This document shows positions 3,140 through 50,355 of a DNA stretch of 50,355 nt, one piece after another; position 1 is the first letter of the stretch, and every line of letters starts with the position of its first letter. Source of the DNA: Alphaproteobacteria bacterium (GTDB taxonomy: Bacteria; Pseudomonadota; Alphaproteobacteria; CAAGCB01; CAG-977); NCBI GenBank assembly GCA_024407875.1, contig JAKSVT010000017.1:1-50355 (forward strand), in the 5' to 3' direction. The notes below the pieces were generated by a model, which saw only the letters and a list, made by a program, of their open reading frames with translations, was not told the origin of the DNA and searched no databases. The translations under genes and the position numbers were made by a program.

Positions 3140-5020
3140 ATGAAGAAGTTTTTCATTTGTTTTTTTACCGTATTTTGTTTTTTATTTTCAAAAATAGCAT
3201 TAGCTGAAATTAGTGTTAGTGCTGATTTGTTGGCTTTAAGCCAAGTTTTTGTTCAAAACAACGAAATTCAATCTGAATTAGTAGTAGCTTTAAAACTTGA
3301 TGTTCCTAATAAATGGCATGTAAGTTGGAAAAATCCCGGAGATGCTGGTGAAAGTGTTGACTTAAGATTAGAAGAAAATTCAGATTTTGAAATTGTTTCA
3401 TCTAATTGGCCTACACCACAAAGAATAGTAACAGGTCCTTTTGTTTCTTATGGAATGGATAAAGAAGTAGGGATTGTTTACCACTTAAGACCAAAACATG
3501 ATTTAAAAGAAGGTATGTACTCAATAGATGGTACAGTTTCTTTAATGACTTGCGGTGAGGAATGCATTCCAATGCAATTGCCTGTATCTGCATTTATTAG
3601 AGTATCAAATACGGTTCCAGAAAAAATAAGAGAAAATGAAGAAGTTAAATCAATAATCAATAAACTTCCAAAAGAAGAATTTGATGATGTCTTTTATAAA
3701 GAGATGGAAAATACTTTTGAAGTATATTTGCCAAGTTTTAAAGGCATAAAAGAAGTTTATATGTATGTTGAAAATTTTGATGCGATTGACTATGCAGCTA
3801 AGCAAACTTTTAAAGTTAAAAATAAAGTAAATTTAAGTATTCAAAAAATTAAGGACGATTTTGTAAGTCCAGAAGATCTTAGAGGAACTGTCGTATATAA
3901 GTTTAATAATGGTGATGAAAAAGCTTATAATATAATTGCTAAAAAAGGCGAACTAAAAGAAGAAATTACAAAAGAAAATAGTGTAAAAAATGATAATAAT
4001 CAAAGTTTGATAATCGCTGTATTACTTGCTTTTATTGGTGGTATCTTATTGAATTTAATGCCGTGTGTTTTCCCTGTTTTGTTCTTAAAAGTTTATGCAA
4101 TTTTAAAGAATAAAGATAAGCCTAATGCAAAATTAGAATTTAGAAATAGCGCAATTTACTACACATTAGGTGTTGTTTTGTCGTTCTTTATAATGGGAAT
4201 AATTTTTATTGTATTACGTTCTAGTGGTCAAGCATTAGGTTGGGGTTTCCAAATGCAAAATCCTGTGTTCGTACTATCAATGGCTATTTTTATGGCAATA
4301 ATTGGCCTTGTTTTCCTTGATGTTATTAAAATCGGAAATAGTGTTTCAAGCATTGCTGGAGAAATGACAAGTAAGTTAGGAGATTTTGGAACAGGCGTTT
4401 TGGCTGTGTTCGTTGCAAGCCCTTGTTCAGCACCTTTTATGGGTGTTGCTTTAGGTTATGCCCTTTCTCATAGTGCTTTTTCTACTTTATCAGTAATGTG
4501 TGTAATGGGAGTGGGATTAGCTTTACCAGTATTATTGTTTGGCTTTGTTCCTAAAATGGCAGTTTTGCTTCCTAAACCAGGAAATTGGATGATTAGATTT
4601 AGACAAGCTTTAGCCTTAGTTATGTTCCTATGTAGTATGTGGTTAGGTTGGGTTTATAATTCATTACAAAATAAAAATATTAATGAATACAATATAAAAG
4701 AAAATAGTGAGATTAATGTTACAAGTAATGTTTCAAAACCTACCTTATATAAGTTTTCTGCAAAATGGTGCTTAACTTGTTTGTTAAATGAAAAAACAAC
4801 ATTTAAGTCAGATAAGGTTAGAAAATATTTAACTAAAAACAATATCGATTTAATAAGTATTGATTGGACCAATAAAAACGAAAAAATTGGTAAAATTATA
4901 GAATCATATGGTAGAGAAGGTGTTCCTTTATATGTTTTCTATAAATCTAATGGGGCTGAGCCTGTTGTTTTTGATGGGGTTTTGACACCAGATTTGTTGA
5001 TTAAAAAAATTACATATTAA
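3140..5020 (+). CDS. dsbD: DsbD/ScsB-family thiol:disulfide interchange protein
   Basis: A 626-residue inner-membrane protein that passes electrons from cytoplasmic thioredoxin to periplasmic thiols. It has a signal peptide (1-22, ending ALA) and a periplasmic N-terminal domain with a CGEEC pair (C138/C142). A polytopic membrane domain (about 289-505) carries the two conserved Cys, C309 in LLNLMPCVFPVLFLK and C429 in VASPCSAPFMG. The C-terminal thioredoxin-like domain has the WCLTC active site (543-547) and a GVPLYVFY cis-Pro loop. All three Cys pairs needed for the relay are present, so it should be functional. The long N-terminal domain is closer to ScsB-type proteins than to classical DsbD. 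It stands alone. In this genome its clients may include the highly Cys-rich secreted proteins encoded further along the window. Confidence 0.88.
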   Translation: MKKFFICFFTVFCFLFSKIALAEISVSADLLALSQVFVQNNEIQSELVVALKLDVPNKWHVSWKNPGDAGESVDLRLEENSDFEIVSSNWPTPQRIVTGPFVSYGMDKEVGIVYHLRPKHDLKEGMYSIDGTVSLMTCGEECIPMQLPVSAFIRVSNTVPEKIRENEEVKSIINKLPKEEFDDVFYKEMENTFEVYLPSFKGIKEVYMYVENFDAIDYAAKQTFKVKNKVNLSIQKIKDDFVSPEDLRGTVVYKFNNGDEKAYNIIAKKGELKEEITKENSVKNDNNQSLIIAVLLAFIGGILLNLMPCVFPVLFLKVYAILKNKDKPNAKLEFRNSAIYYTLGVVLSFFIMGIIFIVLRSSGQALGWGFQMQNPVFVLSMAIFMAIIGLVFLDVIKIGNSVSSIAGEMTSKLGDFGTGVLAVFVASPCSAPFMGVALGYALSHSAFSTLSVMCVMGVGLALPVLLFGFVPKMAVLLPKPGNWMIRFRQALALVMFLCSMWLGWVYNSLQNKNINEYNIKENSEINVTSNVSKPTLYKFSAKWCLTCLLNEKTTFKSDKVRKYLTKNNIDLISIDWTNKNEKIGKIIESYGREGVPLYVFYKSNGAEPVVFDGVLTPDLLIKKITY

Positions 5021-36903: not shown

Positions 36904-38412
36904 ATGAAAAGATTGTTTTTAGGTTTGATAATGCTGATGCCAAGCGTTGCGTTAGCGAGTTCAGATCCTTTAGGAACTGAAGATAAGGTGTTGAAGCCGA
37001 TGCCTTTAGCTCAATGTAATGTTGATGAAATGCAGACTTTATCATTGTCAGATGTTATTAACTTAACACTTTGTAGAAATCCAAAATCAAAACAAACATA
37101 TTTTGCTGCTATGGCTGCAGCTGCAGATTTAGGAGCTGCAAAATCAGGATATTATCCAAAATTGGATTTTGATGCTGATGTAAATGTTAGATCAACAAAG
37201 GTTGATTCAGGAAATTATGATAATTCTTCTACAGGAAGAGTTGGATTATCTTTAAATTGGTTGTTATATGATTTTGGTGCGAGATCAGCTAATAAGAAAA
37301 GCACAATGTATGCTTTAGATGCGGCAATGAGAACTCATTCTGATTCATTGCAAGACTTGATTTTTGAAGCAGCTTCTGCTTATTTCAAAATTTTTGAGTC
37401 AAGAACTGAAGCAAAAAATGCACAAGAAACAGTTGTTCATGCAAAAGAAGCAAGTAATGCAACATATAAGCGTTATCAATTAGGATTGTCAGCTTTTTCT
37501 GATAAATTACAAGCAGACACAACATTAGCTCAAGCAGAGTTAAAATTAACAAAAGCAAAAGAAGCTGAAGTTGTTGCTATGAGCAATTTAGCAATGTTGA
37601 TGGATTTACATCCAACAACTGTATTAAAAGTTAAGGAACCTGATTCATCTATAGATATTTCTGTAATTGATCCTTATGAGGTTTTGTTGGAATCTGCTTT
37701 AAAAAATCGTGCAGATATCAAGGCTTCAAAAGCACAAGTTGCACAATCAAAAGCAATTTTAGATCAACGTAAGGCAAATGATACAGCAACAATTAATTTA
37801 AATGCGGGAACTTCTGCACAAGATAATTTCTTACGTCCACCAGAAAATAAAGTTTATACAAGTCAAGCAGGTATTAATTTGAATGTTCCTATTTTTACAG
37901 GATTTAATAATACTTATAAAATTAGACAAGCTGAACACAATGTAAATAGAGCTGTTGCTAGCTTGAAGACATTAGAAAATCAAGTTGAAAAGAAATTATG
38001 GGAAACATATCAATCTTATTTAACTAGTGAAAAATCATATCAAGCATCATTAGTAATGTTGACTTCTGCTACACAAAACCAAAATGTTGCAATTGGTGCG
38101 TATAAAGCAGGTAGAGGAGACATTTTAAGCGTATTAGAAGCTAATGAAAAAATGGCAGATGCTTTAACAAGTAAAACAAATGCTTATTATGATTTAATTA
38201 TTTCTAAAATCAATTTAATAAGACAAGCAGGCAGATATGATCCATTTAATGAAAGTGGAAATTATTTGTTAGCTGAAAAACAAGCACAACAAAATGTTGT
38301 AATACCAGAACAAATTGTTGAAACTGATCAAGCTTATGTTGCAAAAGAAACTAATCAACAAGAAACTTCTGAAGAAAATAACCAAACACCACAGCAAGAG
38401 GTAGGTGAATAA
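36904..38412 (+). CDS. TolC-family outer-membrane channel protein
   Basis: A 502-residue outer-membrane factor. The signal peptide is MKRLFLGLIMLMPSVALA. Two helical repeats follow, each starting with the TolC pattern: LSLSDVINLTLCRNPKSKQ (near 47) and PYEVLLESALKNRADIKASK (near 258). GYYPKLDFDADVNVRS and VYTSQAGINLNVPIFTGFNN give the beta-barrel strands. The tail of about 60 residues is rich in Gln, Glu and Asn and looks disordered. It overlaps the next gene by one base and is the exit channel of the pump encoded by the four-gene operon. Confidence 0.9.
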   Translation: MKRLFLGLIMLMPSVALASSDPLGTEDKVLKPMPLAQCNVDEMQTLSLSDVINLTLCRNPKSKQTYFAAMAAAADLGAAKSGYYPKLDFDADVNVRSTKVDSGNYDNSSTGRVGLSLNWLLYDFGARSANKKSTMYALDAAMRTHSDSLQDLIFEAASAYFKIFESRTEAKNAQETVVHAKEASNATYKRYQLGLSAFSDKLQADTTLAQAELKLTKAKEAEVVAMSNLAMLMDLHPTTVLKVKEPDSSIDISVIDPYEVLLESALKNRADIKASKAQVAQSKAILDQRKANDTATINLNAGTSAQDNFLRPPENKVYTSQAGINLNVPIFTGFNNTYKIRQAEHNVNRAVASLKTLENQVEKKLWETYQSYLTSEKSYQASLVMLTSATQNQNVAIGAYKAGRGDILSVLEANEKMADALTSKTNAYYDLIISKINLIRQAGRYDPFNESGNYLLAEKQAQQNVVIPEQIVETDQAYVAKETNQQETSEENNQTPQQEVGE

Positions 38413-39563
38413 TGAAAAAATTTTTAGTATTTTTATTAATCGTAATTATTGCATTGGGAGCTTTTTGGTTTATAAAAAGTAAAAATGGAAGTGAACGTGT
38501 CGTTTATGATTACGATAAAGCTCATTATGGTAATATCGAAATCGAAGTTACAGCATCTGGTACAATACAACCTGTGAATGTTGTTTCTGTAGGTACACAA
38601 GTTTCTGGTACAATTGAACATATTTATGTGGATTATAATTCAGTTGTTGAACAAGGACAATTAATTGCTGAATTAGATCCTTTTACTTTAGATGAAAGTT
38701 TAAAAGAATCTGAAGCAACCTTAAAAGAAACTATTGCTAAATTGAAACAAGCAAAAGTTGATGAAAGAAGAAATGCTGAATTATATAAATCAAATTATAT
38801 TTCAAAGCATGAATGGGAAGAAACACAGATTTCTTTAGTTTCTGCAGAAGCTAGTTATAAAAGAGCTTTAGCAGAATTAAATAAAGCAAAGAAAAATAGA
38901 GGTTATGCTCAGATTTTATCACCAGTTTCAGGTACTGTTATTACAAAAGCTGTTGAAGAAGGACAAACCGTTGCTTCTAGCTTTAATACTCCAGAATTAT
39001 TCAAAATTGCTGAAGATTTAAAAAAGATGCAAATTGAAGCTTCTGTTTCTGAAGCTGATATTGGATCTATAAAAGTTGGAATGCCTGTTGAATTTACAGT
39101 AGATACATATACATCTGATATATTCTTTGGAAGAGTTTCACAAATACGTTTGCAACCAAAAGAAGATTCAAATGTTGTTATGTATACAGTTATCATTTCA
39201 ATCTCTAATGATGATTTACGTTTAATGCCTGGTATGACAGCTTATGTTTCAATCAAAGTTGAAAATAAGGAAAATGTTTTAAGAATTAAAAATCTTGCAT
39301 TCCAATATAGACCAGTTGTTGCAGGCGAACGTAGTAAAAATGTTTCAAATGCTGAAAAAGCAAAAATTAAAGCTGAAAGACAAAGTTTAAAACCAAATGA
39401 ATCTTTCTTATATAAAGAAATAGATAATAAACCTTTCAAAATTAAAGTTGTAAAAGGCATTCAAAATTTGGTTTATACAGAAATTCTTGAAGGCTTAAAA
39501 GATGGTGACAAAGTAATTGTTGAAGATTTAACTACTAAAGTTAAAACAAAACGGAGCCATTAA
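38412..39563 (+). CDS. macA: MacA-like periplasmic adaptor (membrane fusion protein)
   Basis: A 383-residue inner-membrane-anchored adaptor joining a MacB-type ABC protein to a TolC channel. One N-terminal membrane segment (4-22) is followed by a lipoyl half-motif (TASGTIQPVNVVSVGTQVSG, then TIEHIYVDYNSVVEQGQLIA). An alpha-hairpin with SLVSAEASYKRALAELNKAK and the second lipoyl half RGYAQILSPVSGTVITKAVE come next. The beta-barrel and membrane-proximal domains complete the protein. An unusual Lys-rich insertion (VSNAEKAKIKAERQSLK) occurs near 315-335. It overlaps both neighbours by one base. Confidence 0.92.
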   Translation: MKKFLVFLLIVIIALGAFWFIKSKNGSERVVYDYDKAHYGNIEIEVTASGTIQPVNVVSVGTQVSGTIEHIYVDYNSVVEQGQLIAELDPFTLDESLKESEATLKETIAKLKQAKVDERRNAELYKSNYISKHEWEETQISLVSAEASYKRALAELNKAKKNRGYAQILSPVSGTVITKAVEEGQTVASSFNTPELFKIAEDLKKMQIEASVSEADIGSIKVGMPVEFTVDTYTSDIFFGRVSQIRLQPKEDSNVVMYTVIISISNDDLRLMPGMTAYVSIKVENKENVLRIKNLAFQYRPVVAGERSKNVSNAEKAKIKAERQSLKPNESFLYKEIDNKPFKIKVVKGIQNLVYTEILEGLKDGDKVIVEDLTTKVKTKRSH

Positions 39564-40282
39564 TGAGTGTAATATCTATCCAAAACGTTTGCAAAACGTA
39601 TGTCATGTCAGCAGGCATGAGCCAGGATGTTTTAAAAAATGTTAATTTAAATGTAGAAAAGGGCGAGTTTGTTGCCATTATGGGACCTTCTGGTGCAGGA
39701 AAGTCTACATTTATGAATATTTTAGGATGTTTAGATAGAGCTTCTTCTGGTAATTACTATTTATCAGGAAAAAATGTTTCTAAAATGAATGATAATGATT
39801 TGGCTCGTGTTAGAAACAAAATGATAGGTTTCGTATTTCAAGGCTTTAATCTTTTGATGCGTAGAAGCATTTTGGATAATGTTTCTCTTCCTATGATTTA
39901 TGATAAAGATGGGCGCGATCCAAGAGTTCGTAGAGCTAGAGCAGAAAAATTGTTGGATATGGTTGGATTAACAGGGTTTATTGATCGCTTTCCAAATCAA
40001 ATTTCGGGAGGTATGCAACAACGTGTTGCAATTGCTAGAGCTTTAGTTAACGATCCTGAAATGATTTTAGCTGATGAACCTACAGGAAACTTAGATACAA
40101 AGACAAGTAATGAAATTATGGATTTTCTTGTTAAATTAAATAGAGAACAGGGAATTACTATAGTATTAGTTACTCATGAGCCTGATATTGCCTGTTATGC
40201 AAAAAGATTGGTTCGTGTTGTTGATGGCCAAATTGCCTATGATGGTGATGTAAAGCAATATATGGAGAATAACAAGGCATGA
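39563..40282 (+). CDS. MacB-type ABC transporter ATPase (separate polypeptide)
   Basis: A 239-residue ABC ATPase. The Walker A is [19 protein letters not shown]. The Q-loop [19 protein letters not shown] and the signature [19 protein letters not shown] are typical of the MacB/LolD group. The Walker B reads [15 protein letters not shown], and the H-loop is [15 protein letters not shown]. All catalytic residues are present. In E. coli MacB this domain is fused to the permease; here it is a separate gene, overlapping the permease gene by 4 bases. It powers export with MacA and TolC. Confidence 0.92.
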
Positions 40283-41493
40283 TAAAATTAATTTTACAAG
40301 AAGCCTGTTTATCCATTGCAGGCAATAAATTACGTTCTTTTTTAACAACTTTAGGTATTATTATCGGTGTTTGTGCTGTTGTTATGATGGTTGCAGCAGG
40401 ACAAACTGTTCAAAGAATTATTCAAGAAAGATTTGTTTCTTTAGGTGCAAACTTATTGATTATTCGTTCGGAAAGACCAAAAGCAAATGTTAAAATATCT
40501 GGCCCAACTACTTCAATTACCTTAGAAGATGCTAATAGTCTAAAACGTTTACGTGGTATTGAAACGGTTGCTCCTGTATTAAGTGCAAATGCTCAAGCTA
40601 TTCGTGGACCTAATAACTGGAATGTTTCTGTTATTGGATCAACACCAGATTTTATGAAAACACAAAATTGGGAAATAAATTTAGGACGTATGATTGACAA
40701 ACAAGATATTAGAAAGGGAACTTCTAATGTTGTAATTGGTCAAGAAGTCGTAGATGAACTTTTTAAAGATGAAGATCCAATTGGTAAAATTTTCCGTGTT
40801 GGAAAAAATCAGTTTACAATTGTAGGAACTTTGAAAGCAAAAGGTACTTCTTCTAGTGCAGCTAATCAAGATGCTTCTGTCATTATGCCTTTATTAACAG
40901 TACAACGTAGATTTAATAGATATGCAAAATTAAATGCTTTAAATCACATAGCTGTTAAGTTCGTTGAGACAGAAGACTTAAATATTGTTGAACAAAGAAT
41001 TACACGCCATCTAAGAGCTCGTCATAAAATTAAAGATGAAGATCCTGATGATTTTAGAATTTTTAATGTGGCAGAATTTGTTGAAAATATTAGATTGATT
41101 GGTAGAGTTTTATCAATTCTTTTGGCAGCAATAGCTAGTATATCTTTGGTTGTTGGTGCCATTGGTATTGTTAATATGATGTTAGTATCTGTAACAGAAA
41201 GAACGAGAGAAATAGGTATTCGTAAGGCTTTGGGTGCTCCTAATTTATGGATTATGATGCAATTTTTGATTGAAGCAGTTCTGATTTCAATGATTGGTGG
41301 TGTTGTTGGATTAGGTTTAGGCATTGGCTTGTCTCAAGTAGCCGGAAAAATCTATAATGTAGAAGTTCCATTTAGCTTATGGCCAGTTGTACTATCATTT
41401 TCAGTAGCATTTTTTGTTGGTGTTATTTCAGGTGTATTTCCAGCATATAAAGCAATGAAATTAGATCCAATTGAAGCTTTAAGATATCAATAA
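40279..41493 (+). CDS. MacB-type ABC transporter permease (FtsX-like)
   Basis: A 404-residue permease. It has the MacB layout: an N-terminal membrane helix (NKLRSFLTTLGIIIGVCAVV), a large periplasmic domain (about 40-275), then three helices with the conserved VGAIGIVNMMLVSVTERTRE and IGIRKALGAPNLWIMMQFL. The C-terminus reads GVFPAYKAMKLDPIEALRYQ. MacB is a mechanotransmission pump that moves periplasmic substrates through TolC, including macrolides and a disulfide-bonded heat-stable enterotoxin in E. coli. It closes the operon and is followed by a terminator. Confidence 0.92.
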   Translation: MIKLILQEACLSIAGNKLRSFLTTLGIIIGVCAVVMMVAAGQTVQRIIQERFVSLGANLLIIRSERPKANVKISGPTTSITLEDANSLKRLRGIETVAPVLSANAQAIRGPNNWNVSVIGSTPDFMKTQNWEINLGRMIDKQDIRKGTSNVVIGQEVVDELFKDEDPIGKIFRVGKNQFTIVGTLKAKGTSSSAANQDASVIMPLLTVQRRFNRYAKLNALNHIAVKFVETEDLNIVEQRITRHLRARHKIKDEDPDDFRIFNVAEFVENIRLIGRVLSILLAAIASISLVVGAIGIVNMMLVSVTERTREIGIRKALGAPNLWIMMQFLIEAVLISMIGGVVGLGLGIGLSQVAGKIYNVEVPFSLWPVVLSFSVAFFVGVISGVFPAYKAMKLDPIEALRYQ

Positions 41494-41641: not shown

Positions 41642-43579
41642 ATGAAAAAGATATTTTGTGTATTAATTTTGTTTTTTACGAATATTATTTCAACAAATGA
41701 AGCTAACGCTCTTGCTACAACATCATGTTCTTTGACTATGGCTCAATGTAATGCATGTTGTAGAGGAGGTTGTATGATTGCATATAATGATGCAAATGGT
41801 AATCCTTGTGCTGAATGTGCAGGTGGTGGATGTGGTGTGGATCCTATTATGGGATTTGATGATACTGGATTTGGTGATGATCCTACTCCTCCTAGTGGTG
41901 GCGGCTCAGGTGGTAGCTCAGGTGGTGGATCTGGCGGTGGCTCAAGTAGCGGATCTTCTTGCGGATCATATGAGATAAGAATTCCTGGAGGAACAACATG
42001 TTTATATACAGGTCAAGCTTATTCAGGTTCAACATGTTGTAGGTGTACTACATCTACTTGTTGTCATATGTATGGTACAGCTTGTAATAATTGTACATCA
42101 GGTTATTGCCAAGGATGTTCTGCTGGATATAAATATATAAGTTCAGGAAAATATTGTGAAAGATGTCCTGCAGGAACTTATTCTAACTCAGGTGCTACAT
42201 CGTGTACACCTTGTCCAGTAGGTAAATATTCAACTTCAGCAGGATCATCTTCATGTACATCCTGTCCTAGTGGACAAACAACAGATTCTACAGGTTCAAC
42301 AAGTTCTTCTCAATGCCATGTGATAGCATGTAATGTTGCACATTGTTCTACTTGCGAACAAGGTTTATCAAATTCTTGTCAAACTTGTCAAAGTGGATAT
42401 TATAAGTATTCTGCAGGTTCTAGTTCTTCAGGATCTGCTGGTAATAGATGGGGATGTAAGGCTTGTTCTGAAATTGCTGTAAGCCATGGAACATGTACAG
42501 CTTGTTCAGCTACGGGATCTTGTACAGCAGTATCATGCGATTCAGGATATCATGCTTCAGGAACTTCTTGTGTAGCAGATGGCGTAAGTTGTCCATCAGA
42601 TTTCTTCTTGAGTAGTAGTTGTCCAACAGGTTGTCCAACACTTGCAACTGGTTGTGCGTTCTGTCAAACTTCAGGAACAGGATCAGGTAGTTCTGGATCA
42701 AGTTCATTCTATTACTGTACATCATGTAAAGATGGCTATAGATTAGGTACTAAAGGAAATTGTATAGCTATAGTGCCTATAGATCATTGTCTTGCTGATG
42801 ATGGACATGGTAAATGTGTTCGTTGTGAAGATGGATATTATGCAAGTGATGATCAAACACAATGTTTGTCTTGTATTGCAAAACATGGCAATTGTTGTAT
42901 GGAATGCACTAAGAACTCATGTAATGTTTACGGAAACCAAAATGGTTATATGATGCAAGGAAGCTCTTGTGTTGTAGAAACAGATGGCTGTGAAAGAGAT
43001 TCTAGCGTAACATCATGTTATAGAGGCTGGAAATGTAATGGTAAAATTACAAATGAAAATTATTCCGGATTCTCAAAAAGATGTGAAAATTTCAAAGTAT
43101 TTAGTAGTGCTTATGGACATGCAAATATAGGTTATTGTACGACATGTAAGCCAAATTATAAGCTTAATTCATGTAATGATTGTGAATGGGATGGTTGTCC
43201 TGCAGGTAAATATACTGTTGTAGGATCAGGAAATAATCCTAATACATGTCAAACATGTTCGGGTTCAACATATCAACCAAATAATAAATATTCTGGTTCA
43301 AGTTGTACTCCATGTCCAGCAGGAACATCTCCTAATGCGGAACATACAGCTTGCGTTTCTTCAGCATGTAATGAAGTAGCAAACGCTTTTGAATGCGCGA
43401 CTGTATGTGAAGATGGAATATGCTGTGATAATAAGGATGAATTCGGAAAATGTATTGGTCCAGATTGTTATCCAGGATATGTATACAACACGTTAACTGG
43501 ACAATGTGATAAACAAGACGATCCATGTCCAGCAAATTACACACAACAAGGCTGTTGTTGTGTACCTAGCGAAAATTAA
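41642..43579 (+). CDS. Large secreted cysteine-rich protein 1 (ephrin-receptor-like repeats)
   Basis: A 645-residue secreted protein with 83 Cys, one of them in the signal peptide (1-24, ending ANALA). Residues 30-65 are a Cys cluster, and 82-106 a Gly/Ser linker. From about 172 to 230 there are GCC2/GCC3 (ephrin-receptor-like) units: CPAGTYSNSGATSCTPCPVG, then KYSTSAGSSSCTSCPSG. Further CxxC-rich modules follow, with a repeated SGY/DGY turn (YYCTSCKDGYRLGTKGNC). The last 70 residues form a domain shared with the second large protein, ending in TQQGCCCVP. The spacing pattern indicates extensive disulfide bonding in the periplasm or outside the cell. No membrane anchor or lipobox is seen. The gene is followed 18 bases later by the small Cys-rich partner. 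The function is unknown; adhesion or a protective coat is possible. Confidence 0.85.
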   Translation: MKKIFCVLILFFTNIISTNEANALATTSCSLTMAQCNACCRGGCMIAYNDANGNPCAECAGGGCGVDPIMGFDDTGFGDDPTPPSGGGSGGSSGGGSGGGSSSGSSCGSYEIRIPGGTTCLYTGQAYSGSTCCRCTTSTCCHMYGTACNNCTSGYCQGCSAGYKYISSGKYCERCPAGTYSNSGATSCTPCPVGKYSTSAGSSSCTSCPSGQTTDSTGSTSSSQCHVIACNVAHCSTCEQGLSNSCQTCQSGYYKYSAGSSSSGSAGNRWGCKACSEIAVSHGTCTACSATGSCTAVSCDSGYHASGTSCVADGVSCPSDFFLSSSCPTGCPTLATGCAFCQTSGTGSGSSGSSSFYYCTSCKDGYRLGTKGNCIAIVPIDHCLADDGHGKCVRCEDGYYASDDQTQCLSCIAKHGNCCMECTKNSCNVYGNQNGYMMQGSSCVVETDGCERDSSVTSCYRGWKCNGKITNENYSGFSKRCENFKVFSSAYGHANIGYCTTCKPNYKLNSCNDCEWDGCPAGKYTVVGSGNNPNTCQTCSGSTYQPNNKYSGSSCTPCPAGTSPNAEHTACVSSACNEVANAFECATVCEDGICCDNKDEFGKCIGPDCYPGYVYNTLTGQCDKQDDPCPANYTQQGCCCVPSEN

Positions 43580-43597
43580 TTCTAGGGAGGAAAGAAA

Positions 43598-44413
43598 ATG
43601 AAAAAACTATTTTATATTTTTGTTTTAGTATTTTGCTTAATTTCTCTAGATGCTCAAGCAAAGACTTGTAAGTTAGGTAGAAATTGTAATGAAACAGGCT
43701 CAAGAGGTGGAGATAGTTCAAGAGCTTCAGCTGGATGTAAATCTGATGCCGATTGTGAAGGATCTGTTTGTAATTTAACTACTCATAGATGTGTTTCAAA
43801 ATGTGATCCAAAAGTATTTACACAATCATGCTCAGGAGATACTCCAACTTGTGTTATCGTAGATGGAACCGCTAAATGTGGTTGTACGGAAGATAGCCAA
43901 TGTAAAGGAACTTATAAACACTGTTCATCACAACATCAATGTGTTGAATGTGTAGCTGATGATCAATGCCCTTCAAATGAAAAATGTAGCTCAATTTCAA
44001 ATAAGTGTGAACCAATTGTTTGCGAAGTTGAAAATTGTAGCGAATGTGTAATTGGAGATGGAACAGCTTGCCAAACATGTGCTGAAGGCTTTAAATTAGA
44101 AGATGGCCAATGTTTACATTGTGATGTTTCAAATATGGAAGGCCTACTTGATCATGGCGTATGTAATTCTTGCACATATTACTCAGGTGATGCAATTTGT
44201 ACATCAGGAACATGTGATGAAGGATATGAATTTAATTCCTCAACGGGACGTTGTGAAAAACAAGAATGTGTAGGTAATGAGGTTTATATCGAAGGTGTTG
44301 GATGTACGGAAGACTATTGTCAGGGATTAACAGGAATATGTGTTCAAGGCCAAACATCAACATATTATTGGACTAATAATACCTCTAAAAAGGCATGTTG
44401 TTGTGAAAAATAA
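43598..44413 (+). CDS. Small secreted cysteine-rich protein 1
   Basis: A 271-residue secreted protein with 38 Cys, 37 after the signal peptide (MKKLFYIFVLVFCLISLDAQ, cleavage near AKT). The early block AGCKSDADCEGSVCNLTTHR and the SQHQCVECVADDQCPSNEKC block resemble Dickkopf- or WAP-like Cys spacing. CEVENCSECVIGDGTACQTC is an EGF/TNFR-like module. The protein ends with CTEDYC, YYWTNNTSKKACCC and EK. The ribosome-binding site GGGAGG is very strong. It is coupled to the large protein upstream and is a clear paralogue of the gene at 47087. I know no characterised relative. Confidence 0.82.
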   Translation: MKKLFYIFVLVFCLISLDAQAKTCKLGRNCNETGSRGGDSSRASAGCKSDADCEGSVCNLTTHRCVSKCDPKVFTQSCSGDTPTCVIVDGTAKCGCTEDSQCKGTYKHCSSQHQCVECVADDQCPSNEKCSSISNKCEPIVCEVENCSECVIGDGTACQTCAEGFKLEDGQCLHCDVSNMEGLLDHGVCNSCTYYSGDAICTSGTCDEGYEFNSSTGRCEKQECVGNEVYIEGVGCTEDYCQGLTGICVQGQTSTYYWTNNTSKKACCCEK

Positions 44414-44505
44414 GGATATTTAAATTTTTAATTCTTGATTAAAAAGGGAAATTTGTTTAAAATTTTTTAAAATTATGATAAGAGACTTATCCAAAATAGC
44501 ATTAG

Positions 44506-44525
44506 TATAATATCATTAATGATAT
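44506..44525 (+). promoter_or_regulatory. Promoter -10 with overlapping 16-base palindrome, Cys-rich pair 2
   Basis: TATAAT (44506-44511) has no good -35. ATATCATTAATGATAT (44510-44525), a perfect palindrome, overlaps its end. The gap (144 bases) has no clear terminator after pair 1. The ribosome-binding site is GAGGAG. Confidence 0.45.
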
Positions 44526-44557
44526 GTGACGAAAGCTTGATAACGAGGAGATAGGAC

Positions 44558-47068
44558 ATGAAAAATGCACTAGTGTTTATATTAACTATATTAGCTTTTA
44601 CTTCAAAGGCTTATAGTAGCATGGATCCTTATGGTGATTGTCAATCAGAAACAAACTATCAATATCAATATACCACGGGATATTGTAGATCTTTTGCGAC
44701 AAAACCTTATAGATCTGTAACAGGTACTACAGAATATTGTAATGTGGGTTGTGTAAGTGCAGCTCCTGGTTATTATTTGGTAGCTTTAAAAGGTTCATAC
44801 AAAAGAGAAGAGGCTTGTCCTAAAGGATATTACTGTACAGGTGGAACTGCTGATAAACAAGCTTGTCCTGCAGGCAAGACAACAAATGATGTTAGAGCAT
44901 ATGCTGTAGAGCAATGTAATGTTTCTACATCTAGTACTACGCCAACTGCAAGCGTTTGTGTTGAAGAGTATGTAACAGAAGTAGATAAATCTGTATCTTT
45001 GGCATCTGGATATAAATGTGAAGGATATTCAACAAGTAATGGTAATTCATCTCATACTGAATCAGGCGGTTGTGTGGCTGGTAAATTTAAAGCTTATAAT
45101 CATCATGGAACAAATTGCTTTAGATGTTTAGAATGTAAAATGGGATATGAACATACAAGGTTTAATGGATGTATTTTTACTAGATGTCCTGCAAATTACT
45201 ATGCAAAGCAACAAGGTGCAGGTAAGCAATGTATAGCTTGTCCAGCAGGAACAACAAGTCCTGCAGGGTCAACAAAAGCTGCAGATTGTGTAGCACCTAT
45301 AGCTTATGCATGTACTGTAGAACATGGCCATGGTACTCCAGATTCTCAAGGACGTTGTGCGTCTTTAGTTTGTGATAGTGGTTATTATCCAATTGGTGGC
45401 GGTGGTAGTTGTGGCTCAACAGGTCAGCAATATAGTGCATCAGCATGTATTCCAGAATCATGTAGATCTTCAGGTGGAACAGTAACCCCTTCAGTTCCAA
45501 GTGGTCCAAGTAAATGTACATTAGCAAATGGTACATGCTCAGGACAAGCATATAACGGATCTTCAGGTTGTACATGTCAATCAGGTTCATGTAATTCTGG
45601 CTATGACAAGAAGATGGTTTATAAAGACAATTCTATGTTCTCAGGAAGTAGCTTTTATTGTCAGCAACAATTAGTAGCATGTTATGAAGGATTTACATGC
45701 TGTGGTAATGGTTGTGCAGAATGTACAAGTGCTAATGAAAAAAGTAATCGTCAATGCATTTTCTGTGCTCAAGACTATTATTTATCTACATCATTATATG
45801 GATTCGGGGATAATAATGGATGTACGAAATGTCCAACGGGTACACATTCATCTGTAGGATCTGTTGGAATAGATTCTTGTAAGTATACATCTTGTCCAAA
45901 AGGCAAACTGTTAAGTGATGGAAAATGTTTAGATTGTCCGGTTGGTACATATCAGCCAAACGATAATTCAACAGCTAAACTTTGTATAAGTTGTCCAATT
46001 GGATATTCGACTAGTGATGTTGGTACAACAGCTTTAATTGATTGTGTGCCAGAAGTCCCTAATTGTCCAGAAGGTGCAACAACAGCATATAGTTCTTTAT
46101 TAGTTGAAAATTGTGCTGATGTTGCGTTATGTAGACAAGGTCGAGATGATAGATATTATTGTAGAAATTGTAACTCAGGATATGTTTTGCAAAATGGTAC
46201 TTGTGTTAGAATAACAACATCATGTCAAGCAGGATATTTCTTGCCAGATCCAAGAGCAGGATGTCAAATTTGTCCAAAGAATGCATATTGTCCTCAAGGA
46301 GCTATAACTCCTACACCATGTCCAAGTGGATATGTTACAGAAACAACAGGAAGTAAGTCTGTTTCAGATTGTAAGGCATTAAATGCTTGTCCAGGAGGTA
46401 CTTCTTCAATAAAAACATATACAAGTTGTCCAGATGAATGTTCAAATTGTATGGAATGTTTGGCTAATGGAACAAAGAAATATATGTGTACAGCATGTAG
46501 AGTAGGAGCAACATGGGTTGCATCTTATCAAGAATGTTTACAAATGACATGTCCATCTGGTTATAAGATTGTACACGCAAGTTCAATTGCAAATTGTCAA
46601 AACTCAGGAATGTGTTGGGATAATGGACCTGCCATGTTCTGTAGATCATGTGATAATGGCTATACATTAAATGCTAATGGTTTATGTGATAGAAATGGAT
46701 GTGCAAAAGGTTATTACCAAGGTTCAAGTAATATTTGTACAAAGTGTCAAGTTGGATATGTTCAACCTGATGATAATTCATTTGCAACAAGTTGTACAAA
46801 ATGTGCAACAGGCTTGACATCAAATTCTGATTTTACAGCTTGTGTTCCAGCAACATGTTCACATGTTCCAAATTCATATGAATGCCATTCATTCTGTGAA
46901 AATGGTAAGTGCTGTGATAATAAGGATTCAGCAGGAAATTGTGTAGGTCCAATTTGTTATCCAGGTTATGAATTAAACAGATCAACAGGTTTGTGTGAAA
47001 AAGTAATTAATCCATGTCCAACAGATTATACACAGCAAGGTTGTTGCTGTGTTCCAAAAGCTAACTAA
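44558..47068 (+). CDS. Large secreted cysteine-rich protein 2
   Basis: An 836-residue secreted protein with Cys throughout (about one residue in nine). The signal peptide is MKNALVFILTILAFTSKAYS. Ephrin-receptor-like units occur at several places (CIACPAGTTSPAGSTKAADC near 225, CLDCPVGTYQPNDNSTAKLC near 457, CTKCQVGYVQPDDNSFATSC near 727). Residues 611-710 are a distinct module of about 100 residues that recurs three times in the fifth protein; its second half also appears at 506-549. The last 70 residues match the end of large protein 1, with FCENGKCCDNKD and TDYTQQGCCCVP. It is followed 18 bases later by its small partner. No membrane anchor is seen. The function is unknown. Confidence 0.85.
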   Translation: MKNALVFILTILAFTSKAYSSMDPYGDCQSETNYQYQYTTGYCRSFATKPYRSVTGTTEYCNVGCVSAAPGYYLVALKGSYKREEACPKGYYCTGGTADKQACPAGKTTNDVRAYAVEQCNVSTSSTTPTASVCVEEYVTEVDKSVSLASGYKCEGYSTSNGNSSHTESGGCVAGKFKAYNHHGTNCFRCLECKMGYEHTRFNGCIFTRCPANYYAKQQGAGKQCIACPAGTTSPAGSTKAADCVAPIAYACTVEHGHGTPDSQGRCASLVCDSGYYPIGGGGSCGSTGQQYSASACIPESCRSSGGTVTPSVPSGPSKCTLANGTCSGQAYNGSSGCTCQSGSCNSGYDKKMVYKDNSMFSGSSFYCQQQLVACYEGFTCCGNGCAECTSANEKSNRQCIFCAQDYYLSTSLYGFGDNNGCTKCPTGTHSSVGSVGIDSCKYTSCPKGKLLSDGKCLDCPVGTYQPNDNSTAKLCISCPIGYSTSDVGTTALIDCVPEVPNCPEGATTAYSSLLVENCADVALCRQGRDDRYYCRNCNSGYVLQNGTCVRITTSCQAGYFLPDPRAGCQICPKNAYCPQGAITPTPCPSGYVTETTGSKSVSDCKALNACPGGTSSIKTYTSCPDECSNCMECLANGTKKYMCTACRVGATWVASYQECLQMTCPSGYKIVHASSIANCQNSGMCWDNGPAMFCRSCDNGYTLNANGLCDRNGCAKGYYQGSSNICTKCQVGYVQPDDNSFATSCTKCATGLTSNSDFTACVPATCSHVPNSYECHSFCENGKCCDNKDSAGNCVGPICYPGYELNRSTGLCEKVINPCPTDYTQQGCCCVPKAN

Positions 47069-47086
47069 TTCTAGGGAGATAAGAAA

Positions 47087-48064
47087 ATGAAAAAACTATT
47101 TTATATTTATGTTTTGATGTTTTGTTTAATCTCTTTAGATGTTCATGCTGCCGCTTGTAAATTGGGTAGAGACTGTGGTGGTGAATCTTCTGGAGTGGGA
47201 AGAAGTTTAAGAGCGAACGCAGGATGTGATTCTGATGCTGACTGCGAAGGGTCTATTTGTGATACTAAAACACGTAGATGCGTTTCTCCTTGTGATCCAA
47301 AAGTATTTAAACAAACATGTACAGGCGATACACCAAGATGTGTCGTTGTAGATGGTAAAGCACAATGTGGTTGTACAGAAAACAATCAATGTAAAGGAAC
47401 ATATAAATATTGTTCTTCACAGCATGAATGTTCAGAATGTACAAAAGATGAACATTGTCCTGCTAACGAAAGATGTAATTCTGTTTCATTTAAGTGCGAA
47501 CCGATACCATGTGAAGTTGAAAATTGTACAGAATGTGTAATTGGAGATGGTACAAAATGTGCTACATGTGCAGAAAGCTTCAAGCTTGACAATGGACAAT
47601 GTACATCATGTGATGTTTCTGTAATTAAAGATTATTTTGAAAACGGAACATGTAACACTTGTTCGTATTCAGCAGGTGATGCTGTATGTACATCTGCAAC
47701 ATGTAATGTTGGTTATGAATTTAATTCAACAACAGGATTATGTGAAAAACAAATTTGTGTAGGAAACGAAGTGTTCATTGAAGGTGTTGGTTGTACAGAG
47801 GATTATTGTCAATCCCTAACAGGATTATGTGCTAAGGGTGATTCCATTAATTACTATTGGACAAACAATACAGAGAAAAAAGCATGTTGTTGTGAAACAG
47901 ATGCAACGTCTACTTCAGTAAGCACTGGTACACCGTCAGTATATTCGGGCAGTTCAAGTGGTGGAACAGGTGCTGGTGGAGGTGCCGGGAATAAAACTTG
48001 TATGGGAACTGATGGTAGGCTTGTAGCAAATTGTACGCCTAATAATGTGGTTTCTGCTAGATAA
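47087..48064 (+). CDS. Small secreted cysteine-rich protein 2 with C-terminal extension
   Basis: A 325-residue paralogue of the protein at 43598. The signal peptide (MKKLFYIYVLMFCLISLDVH) and the first 270 residues align almost without gaps and keep the Cys positions: CDSDADCEGSICDTKTRRC, CEVENCTECVIGDGTKCATC, TEDYCQSLTGLC and WTNNTEKKACCC. It then continues for about 55 residues that its paralogue lacks: a Ser/Thr/Gly-rich linker (STSVSTGTPSVYSGSSSG, GTGAGGGAG) and a final Cys pair in KTCMGTDGRLVANCTPNN. The extension may be a cell-surface spacer or a fused peptide. The junction with the upstream gene is copied from pair 1 at the nucleotide level. The ribosome-binding site is GGGAGA. Confidence 0.82.
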   Translation: MKKLFYIYVLMFCLISLDVHAAACKLGRDCGGESSGVGRSLRANAGCDSDADCEGSICDTKTRRCVSPCDPKVFKQTCTGDTPRCVVVDGKAQCGCTENNQCKGTYKYCSSQHECSECTKDEHCPANERCNSVSFKCEPIPCEVENCTECVIGDGTKCATCAESFKLDNGQCTSCDVSVIKDYFENGTCNTCSYSAGDAVCTSATCNVGYEFNSTTGLCEKQICVGNEVFIEGVGCTEDYCQSLTGLCAKGDSINYYWTNNTEKKACCCETDATSTSVSTGTPSVYSGSSSGGTGAGGGAGNKTCMGTDGRLVANCTPNNVVSAR

Positions 48065-48071
48065 ATTTTGA

Positions 48072-48102
48072 AAATAAGCGACTGTTAAAAAGTCGCTTAT
48101 TT
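48072..48102 (+). terminator. Hairpin terminator after Cys-rich pair 2
   Basis: AAATAAGCGACT (48072-48083) pairs perfectly with AGTCGCTTATTT (48091-48102) around a 7-base loop. The T-tract is short, but the stem is strong. Confidence 0.65.
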
Positions 48103-48103
48103 A

Positions 48104-48132
48104 ACATAATTTTGCCATTATTAGAATATAAT
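48104..48132 (+). promoter_or_regulatory. Shared upstream block, probable promoter of the fifth Cys-rich gene
   Basis: ACATAATTTTGCCA (48104-48117) repeats the block at 41577 with one change, followed by TAGAATATAAT (48122-48132), which contains a perfect TATAAT. The ribosome-binding site GGAGA lies at 48156-48160. Confidence 0.45.
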
Positions 48133-48166
48133 ATAAAATATAAGGATAATTTATCGGAGAAACGAT

Positions 48167-50355
48167 ATGAAAAAGATAATAAGCTTATTAATTTTATCAA
48201 TTGCTTTTGTTGGATTTTCAAGTGAAGCTTATGCAAGAGATTGTAAGCCTATGGATTCTGATAATTGTAATACGTATAATGGAACTGGAGGCTGTAGACA
48301 ATGGGTAGCATCGTCAGCTTCAGCTTGTTATACAAGGGATAAAAAAGGATGTGAATGTAAAGAAACTTATCCAGGATATTATATGTCCTCTGATTTAGAC
48401 ATTTTTGAATGTCCTATCGGATCATATTGTCCTGGTCATGTTGGGGCTGGTGGTAAAACTGATTGTACAGGTGGAAAGACGACATGTCAGTCCAAGAGTC
48501 AAAACTCAGCACAGTGCGTTTCACCGGCATCTTGTACGTCATCATCTACAGGAGATGCATGTGTAGCTTGGAAGGCTAATTATGATACATGTCCAGTAGA
48601 GGCTACATCATGTTCAACATGTAAATCAAATGGAAAAACACGTTATGTAGTTAATTCATGTAAACAAGGAACATCTTTACATGCAGGAGATTACACATGT
48701 CATCCAATAGATTGTGGTAGTCATACAACATTTACAAATTCATCAATAAGTAATTGTTCTTCAGTATCAGTTTGTTGGAAGAATAATGCGACAGCATGGT
48801 ATTGTAATCAATGTAATTCAGGTTATTTGTTAGTTGGTGGTGGCTGTGGAAAAGCTTGTGAAGCTGGATATTTCTTGCCATCTTATCAAGCAGGATGTCA
48901 AAATTGTCCTCAAAATGCTTACTGTCCAGCAAACTCAACATCTCCTACAAGTTGCAATACAGTTGGTCAAGGTTATGTAACTGATCATAATAAGGCAAAA
49001 ACAGCTTCAGAATGTCATAGTCCAAGTACTAATGGAACAACAACAAGTGAGGGATGCCCAACAGGAAATACAACAGTATTTTCTTCATGTCCAACACTTT
49101 GTAATTGTGCTGAATGTAATCAAAATGGAACTAAAAAGTATTATTGTACAAGCTGTAAAGATGGTGGATCATTTAGAACCTCAGACTATACTTGTCAAGA
49201 ACTCTCATGTCCATCAGGAAAAACATTAAGTTCTTCATCTTATATAGCAAATTGTGCTAAATCAACTAAATGCTTTAAAGATGGTACAGCTAAATACTAT
49301 TGTGATCAATGTAATAGCGGTTATACTTTAAATAGTAATGGAACATGTTCTGGAGGTTCTACATTACCTGCATGTCCAGGTCCTGATAGTGGAAAGCAAA
49401 TTTATGCAACATGTCCAACACCTTGTGCATCATGTACTAAGTGTGCAAGACAGGACAATGGTCAAACAAATTATTATTGTGCAAATTGTAAAGCAGGTGT
49501 TTCATTTACAGTTGAAACATATACATGTACACCAATTAATTGCCCATCTGGAGTTACAACAAGCACAAGTAGTACTATAGCAGGATGTTCATCAACAGGA
49601 GTATGTTGGGCAAATAATAATACAGCATATTATTGCAAAACATGTAATACAGGATATACATTAACTTCACAAGGAACATGTACTAAAGCTGAATGTACAA
49701 ATTTAGATGAAAAATTCTGTTTACCATTAAGTGGATCAGCAAATAGTGGTTGTGGAAACTATTATAATGCAACATCAACAGCAGGATGTTCAAAATGGTC
49801 TCAAGTTTCAGATTGTTGTAATACAAATCCAGGATGCCGTTGTACAGGACATGCACTTAAAGGATATTATTGGGATAAGAGTGTAACTCCATATCCAACA
49901 AAGTGTCCAGGCAATCAAACAACAGATGGTGAAGGAGCAACGAGTGTATCTCAATGTCATTCTATAGATTCATGTACTATAGCATCATCAAATTTCTGTT
50001 TGCCGTATTCTCCAGCAAATTCATGTAAGACATATAATGATGACGAACCTGGTTGTGTTTGGGAAAAATCTAATGATTGTTGTCAAGCAGGACTTCCAGG
50101 AGGATATGATAGTGGATGTCGTTGTACAAAAGTAAATCCAGGATATCACTGGACCAGTCAAGATAAAGCTAATGGAATTTCATTCCCAGTTTTATGTGAA
50201 GTAGGATACTATTGCTTAGGTGGAGATAATGATCATATGCCATGTCCAGAAGGAAAATATTCACCATCAGGAGCAAAATCAGAAGATGAATGTGTAGTAA
50301 ATTGTCCTACAGGACAATCACTAAAAGAAGGTAAATGTGTACCTGATCATGGAAC
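48167..50355 (+). CDS. Very large secreted cysteine-rich protein, 3' end outside the window
   Basis: An ATG at 48167 opens a frame with no stop through to the window end: 729 residues so far. The signal peptide is MKKIISLLILSIAFVGFSSE, cleavage near AYA. Two kinds of module alternate. Type 1 (about 139-227, 297-394, 403-505) ends with a pattern like CWKNNATAWYCNQCNSGY and recurs in the 836-residue protein. Type 2 (about 26-117, 510-597, 603-709) has a GC-x-C-rich start, a GYYW or GYHW turn and CPxGK. A unit CEAGYFLPSYQAGCQNCPQN also matches the 836-residue protein. No anchor is visible in the part seen. Reverse-strand open frames across it are a by-product of its codon use. Confidence 0.85.
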   Translation, partial: MKKIISLLILSIAFVGFSSEAYARDCKPMDSDNCNTYNGTGGCRQWVASSASACYTRDKKGCECKETYPGYYMSSDLDIFECPIGSYCPGHVGAGGKTDCTGGKTTCQSKSQNSAQCVSPASCTSSSTGDACVAWKANYDTCPVEATSCSTCKSNGKTRYVVNSCKQGTSLHAGDYTCHPIDCGSHTTFTNSSISNCSSVSVCWKNNATAWYCNQCNSGYLLVGGGCGKACEAGYFLPSYQAGCQNCPQNAYCPANSTSPTSCNTVGQGYVTDHNKAKTASECHSPSTNGTTTSEGCPTGNTTVFSSCPTLCNCAECNQNGTKKYYCTSCKDGGSFRTSDYTCQELSCPSGKTLSSSSYIANCAKSTKCFKDGTAKYYCDQCNSGYTLNSNGTCSGGSTLPACPGPDSGKQIYATCPTPCASCTKCARQDNGQTNYYCANCKAGVSFTVETYTCTPINCPSGVTTSTSSTIAGCSSTGVCWANNNTAYYCKTCNTGYTLTSQGTCTKAECTNLDEKFCLPLSGSANSGCGNYYNATSTAGCSKWSQVSDCCNTNPGCRCTGHALKGYYWDKSVTPYPTKCPGNQTTDGEGATSVSQCHSIDSCTIASSNFCLPYSPANSCKTYNDDEPGCVWEKSNDCCQAGLPGGYDSGCRCTKVNPGYHWTSQDKANGISFPVLCEVGYYCLGGDNDHMPCPEGKYSPSGAKSEDECVVNCPTGQSLKEGKCVPDHG

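Follow-up and report, generated by a model that had tools for sequence, protein, structure and literature searches.

Paired cysteine-rich genes at the contig end

The window, a 50,355-nucleotide (nt) stretch of DNA that constitutes the complete contig C9 of a 1.77 Mb alphaproteobacterial draft genome, carries at positions 41642-50355 five open reading frames (ORFs) for Cys-rich signal-peptide proteins: LA1, SA1, LA2, SA2 and the open-ended LA3. They are of two types, A and B, and the element analyzed here is the triple-Cys motif (CCC), together with the C-terminal Cys module around it, that is found in both. The genes and motifs are as follows.

41642..43579, + strand: LA1, ORF, type A large Cys-rich protein, 645 amino acids (aa), with a signal peptide and ephrin-receptor-like repeats (PF07699, E 1.5e-13)
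43466..43576, + strand: LA1 C-terminal module, C..GY...C...CP...GCCCVPSEN (alignments A6, A8)
43553..43561, + strand: LA1 CCC codons; the protein ends GCCCVPSEN
43598..44413, + strand: SA1, type B Cys-rich protein, 271 aa, starting 18 nt after LA1
43670..43678, + strand: SA1 KLG motif, directly after the signal peptide
44303..44410, + strand: SA1 C-terminal module, C-x4-C-x6-C-x2-G...CCCEK (alignments A4, A7)
44396..44404, + strand: SA1 CCC codons; the protein ends ACCCEK
44558..47068, + strand: LA2, ORF, type A large Cys-rich protein, 836 aa (PF07699, E 8.7e-11)
46955..47065, + strand: LA2 C-terminal module, ending GCCCVPKAN (alignment A8; profile match E 1.8e-8)
47042..47050, + strand: LA2 CCC codons
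47087..48064, + strand: SA2, type B Cys-rich protein, 325 aa, extended at the C-terminus by a Gly/Ser-rich stretch and sharing 69% identity with SA1
47159..47167, + strand: SA2 KLG motif
47792..47896, + strand: SA2 CCC module, internal rather than terminal (alignments A4, A7)
47885..47893, + strand: SA2 CCC codons (ACCCETD)
48167..50355, + strand: LA3, the fifth gene, type A by its N-terminus (without KLG), open at the contig edge

LA1 (50.7 bits) and LA2 (41.9 bits) both exceed the PF07699 cut-off of 23.1 bits, and type A bodies are, judged by such matches, members of the broad ephrin-receptor-like (TNFR-like) repeat group. The CCC tail, however, lies outside the matched repeats, and the type B proteins differ in that neither SA1 nor SA2 belongs to a Pfam family at E 0.1 or to an NCBIfam family over its cut-off. 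The Pfam scan of the window proteins returned PF07699, a sub-threshold NCD3G match and nothing else. SA1 and SA2 are recent duplicates. The last 33 nt of LA3 recur only at the end of contig C7, with neither end continued by another contig.

A triple-cysteine module in both operon products

A preliminary description of this DNA had placed the triple-Cys motif at or near the end of all four complete proteins. This holds for LA1, SA1 and LA2, in which CCC is followed by 5, 2 and 5 residues, but not strictly for SA2, whose CCC (residues 267-269 of 325) lies 56 residues from the end and precedes a Gly/Ser-rich extension holding two more Cys. The aromatic residue and Gln/Asn/Thr described just before CCC are likewise present within the window but do not extend to the family as a rule, with an aromatic residue found within 12 residues in 40 of 68 proteins. 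Chance was assessed on 37 Cys-rich signal-peptide proteins from loci fetched ahead of any CCC-tail search. In 16 of the 37 the three final Cys directly follow one another, against 0.55 expected (0 of 2000 shuffles), while total CCC occurrences are fewer than composition predicts (18 observed, 33 expected). Because the total is not enriched, it is the position of CCC that is special.

Sampling of the order covered 12 genomes, comprising one family and three genera, with loci fetched around ephrin-receptor-like matches and later around tail-profile matches. In these genomes a gene for a secreted Cys-rich A protein lies directly 5' of one for a secreted B protein in at least 29 operons, with gaps of 3-29 nt; the gene order is reversed in one case, in G010. 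Of 48 B proteins, 41 carry KLG a short distance behind the signal peptide, extended to KLGR in 31, whereas all 36 A proteins lack it there; the contrast is partly by construction, because B was recognized by a looser K-hydrophobic-[GWMF] pattern. Both window pairs conform to this organization, with A 5' of B, signal peptides on both, an A tail CP...CC(C), a B start with KLG and a B tail C..C..G..CCC. Paralogs in the same genome carry related ends. On contig C20, QQGCCCVPIDDRDGV closes a large protein and KEKHTCCCQPAN a small one; on contig C13, the end of a 1610-aa protein is GLCCRYQVQGAAE, and its small companion has CDKGCCCSN followed by a tail; on contig C7, GEMCCELKE ends a 723-aa protein, and the small one has GKKCCCEF followed by a Gly-rich tail.

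Tail-profile searches located the B tail in 10 of the 12 genomes. The proposal of a common C-terminal element in two otherwise different protein classes is supported, in 10 of 12 genomes and two of the three genera, and the motif is widespread among relatives rather than absent from orthologs. No B tail was found outside the family in a class-wide sample of 385 genomes or a phylum-wide sample of 398, and the class-wide A8 matches outside the family (G049, G277, G291) have no CCC end. One further match (L065, in a deltaproteobacterial metagenome-assembled genome, 28% identity) was dropped, its Cys-rich frame having no CCC end. Searches among phages, plasmids and viral contigs found no relative of SA1, and literature searches found no description of the CCC-tail motif. 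The CCC module is a real conserved feature common to paired secreted proteins and seen so far in one order only.

Alignment A8 gives the A tail pattern C..GY..C....CP...T.S.DGCCC, and A4/A7 give the B pattern C-x3..5-C-x4..9-C-x2-G-x9..20-CCC. Six Cys are invariant in the first ten B tails and five across all 24. Compared with hhalign, the A and B tail profiles match each other over their whole length (probability 88.6); neither matches a solved structure in the PDB. Several B proteins of G005-G009 hold the module twice, and it is internal in G004 and in some G008 proteins, which argues for a disulfide module rather than a unique terminal tag; the CCC element is more aptly seen as a Cys module that can be repeated and usually stands last in the protein.

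One relative holds about 20 tail copies. In locus L157 (G004:C25) four A-B pairs stand in tandem, and there A is mostly short and B long, the opposite of the window. Many contigs of G007 and G008 (L143, L145, L148-L153, L163, L164, L166-L168) stop inside near-identical CCC 3' ends, where the assemblies break; this pattern suggests many recent copies or gene conversion.

Cysteine parity and the role of the tails

Cys were counted after removal of predicted signal peptides. Totals are odd in 22 of 25 B proteins with one CCC, in none of the nine with two and in 4 of 15 with none, and the Cys outside the module are even in 33 of 34 B and 23 of 27 A proteins. With bodies even, one-CCC totals odd and two-CCC totals even, tandem modules restoring evenness, the spare cysteine would lie in the B module. 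On the simplest reading, the Cys of the bodies all pair internally, while in the B module, with its five Cys, one has no partner in its own chain. A tails cut to CC with no compensating Cys have odd totals in five of five cases. Among the proposed roles of CCC, an intermolecular disulfide is the best-supported candidate, being favored by B-protein parity.

CCC closes a C-terminal Cys module common to both products of the A-B operon; the layout of the operon, the conservation of the module, its tandem duplication in some B proteins and the parity of the Cys counts are observed. We tentatively propose, as a reading that may well hold but is far from secure, that this module supplies the Cys for intermolecular disulfides. 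Both proteins would be exported by Sec and oxidized in the periplasm, where their bodies would pair internally. The five-Cys B module would form two internal disulfides, leaving one CCC cysteine for a bond to the A partner, another B or another envelope protein, so that a covalent surface complex would be held together through the tails. Such a complex might be switched on and off and be exposed to immune or phage pressure, as poly-C/G promoter tracts of homologous operons suggest.

Several observations count against this proposal. A tails hold four Cys and A totals are as a rule even, so that by parity A needs no free Cys, and parity would not predict a simple 1:1 bond between A and B. An odd Cys might also stay a free thiol. 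For B parity, Fisher's test gives p 5e-7, or p 2e-4 once the proteins are clustered at 50% identity; these values serve as guides, since the proteins compared are related to one another and their signal peptides were removed by a heuristic cut. Of the three B exceptions, two hold an additional Cys within the module; the rule that counts such a Cys, up to 8 residues from CCC, as part of the module was adopted once the exceptions had been seen. Some family members have CC, CYC or no cluster in place of CCC. Global identity (tails versus bodies, 0.39 versus 0.35 for A and 0.37 versus 0.34 for B) does not support the idea that tails are more conserved than bodies. AlphaFold2 models of SA1 and SA2 alone are of low confidence, with a mean predicted local distance difference test score (pLDDT) of 60 and about 50 at the C-terminus; Foldseek with these low-confidence models gave no match at E 0.001.

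The main rival, which we consider somewhat unlikely, is an intrachain disulfide cap, in which the CCC cysteines pair upstream in their own chain and stabilize the C-terminus only. Even totals in A tails accord with it, as do the many tails of both classes in which three spaced Cys before CCC make six, and the tandem repetition of the module within one chain; yet in B, with five Cys in the core module and an even number in the rest of the body, one Cys is left without an intrachain partner in most proteins. The least credible alternative explains CCC by a very high Cys content or by a single recent duplication. Although CCC is expected by composition at a Cys content of 10-14%, and although SA1 and SA2 are duplicates, this explanation is already refuted by the position of CCC, far from chance, and by its distribution across other contigs, genera and barely alignable bodies, where the five-to-six-Cys spacing pattern is kept; we give it virtually no weight. 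The preliminary suggestion of an acylation or anchoring site, such as a sortase-like one, fares little better and appears highly improbable. In its favor are just the location at the terminus and a cysteine that may be unpaired; lipid or sortase anchoring otherwise finds no support in the sequence. No hydrophobic helix of the kind that stands between the motif and the basic end of CTERM sorting signals (PEP-CTERM, MYXO-CTERM and similar) lies near the tail, where the top 16-residue mean hydropathy is 1.29 against about 1.8-2.6 in the signal peptides of the same proteins, and the window proteins match no NCBIfam sorting-signal family.

Recognition of the tail for outer-membrane export, for example by MacAB-TolC, is unlikely as well. 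E. coli MacAB-TolC exports the periplasmic disulfide-bonded peptide STII (PMC5985334), and two features of the window belong to this setting.

36904-41493: TolC-MacA-MacB operon, complete, directly upstream of LA1 (Pfam)
3140-5020: DsbD-like protein

The pump beside LA1, a divergent A-B pair after MacB in G003 and the same tails on different bodies are in keeping with an export signal. Against it, MacAB-TolC occurs in 11 of the 12 family genomes but adjoins Cys-rich genes in only 2 of these 11; as the other nine have the pump with no Cys-rich neighbor, the linkage is weak and is ruled out as a conserved feature. Further, CCC tails are absent from G001 and G010 although both encode MacAB, CCC is missing from some A and B proteins and internal in SA2 and several others, and the large proteins are much bigger than the small peptides that MacAB is known to export. 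Type II secretion was rejected as an obvious route, the one secretin locus of the genome being type IVb pilus-like and secretins occurring also in genomes without CCC tails. That cluster (L239, G000:C5:5000-22000), read by eye, holds a secretin, an ATPase and a platform protein beside a VirB4/TraC-like ATPase.

Promoter tracts and comparison with known surface systems

In G002, G006, G007, G008 and G009 the first operon gene is preceded, at a distance of about 70-105 nt, by poly-C/G tracts of 12-18 nt, and those of G009 are positioned between -35-like and -10-like boxes. C/G runs of at least 10 in 586 kb fall within 150 nt upstream of a Cys-rich gene in 15 of 17 cases, against 0.37 expected by area. 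The window and the paralogous loci of the same genome have no such tract. The tracts, as candidate switches, suggest that the homologous operons may encode surface-exposed, phase-variable proteins. Upstream of A genes in G006-G008 lies a conserved 5' leader of about 120 nt with a terminator-like hairpin, a candidate regulatory RNA with no Rfam match, in which a stem would pair TCTGAACATCC with the ribosome-site region GGATTGTTCAGA, co-varying in some copies. An AT-rich promoter element like TTTGCCATAATT / GCCACAATT is common to the upstream regions of LA1, LA3, the large genes of L026 and L027, and L084.

L066-L069, L071, L074-L076, L078, L079, L139, L140, L156, L159, L161: poly-C/G tract upstream of the first Cys-rich gene
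L077:4796-4925, L162:572-698, L165:2935-3061, L173:1603-1730, L154:709-838: leader copies
L242:669-798, L146:3289-3414, L155:713-851: further leader copies

In eukaryotes, C-terminal cystine-knot dimerization domains provide a conserved terminal Cys module linking otherwise different secreted proteins, a likeness that serves as a lead; the A and B tail profiles match no solved structure. Variant-specific surface proteins of Giardia (PF03302) resemble the A-B proteins in joining variable Cys-rich bodies to conserved ends, and one G008 A protein matches PF03302 weakly (E 8.5e-6, below the cut-off); the A-B proteins differ in being bacterial, in having no C-terminal membrane segment and in ending with CCC. 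OmcA and OmcB of chlamydiae are one small and one large protein. They are secreted and Cys-rich, and stabilize the envelope by extensive disulfide bonds (PMC3561449). The A-B proteins, also a pair of secreted Cys-rich proteins, could plausibly work like OmcA/OmcB. They show no homology to them, the Pfam scan giving no match to any other Cys-rich envelope family for the window proteins, and they differ in placing the large gene before the small and in occurring in many copies; their cross-linking is a prediction from Cys parity. Phase-variable surface proteins, for example in Neisseria (PMC5320596), are under the control of promoter homopolymer tracts. The tracts in the promoter region of homologous A-B operons resemble these; the window is tract-free, and switching of A-B operons is a possibility that the tracts suggest. 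A fuller picture, of a lineage-specific, phase-variable, multi-copy surface system in which long A and small B proteins would be joined or polymerized by intermolecular disulfides of their triple-Cys modules, is doubtful.

The A-B operons define an apparently undescribed family of paired secreted Cys-rich proteins, for which Cys parity predicts that in each B chain with a single module one cysteine forms its bond with a partner outside the chain. If this is true, these bacteria would build a covalently linked, switchable surface structure, for which the tails and the KLG start would provide search signatures.

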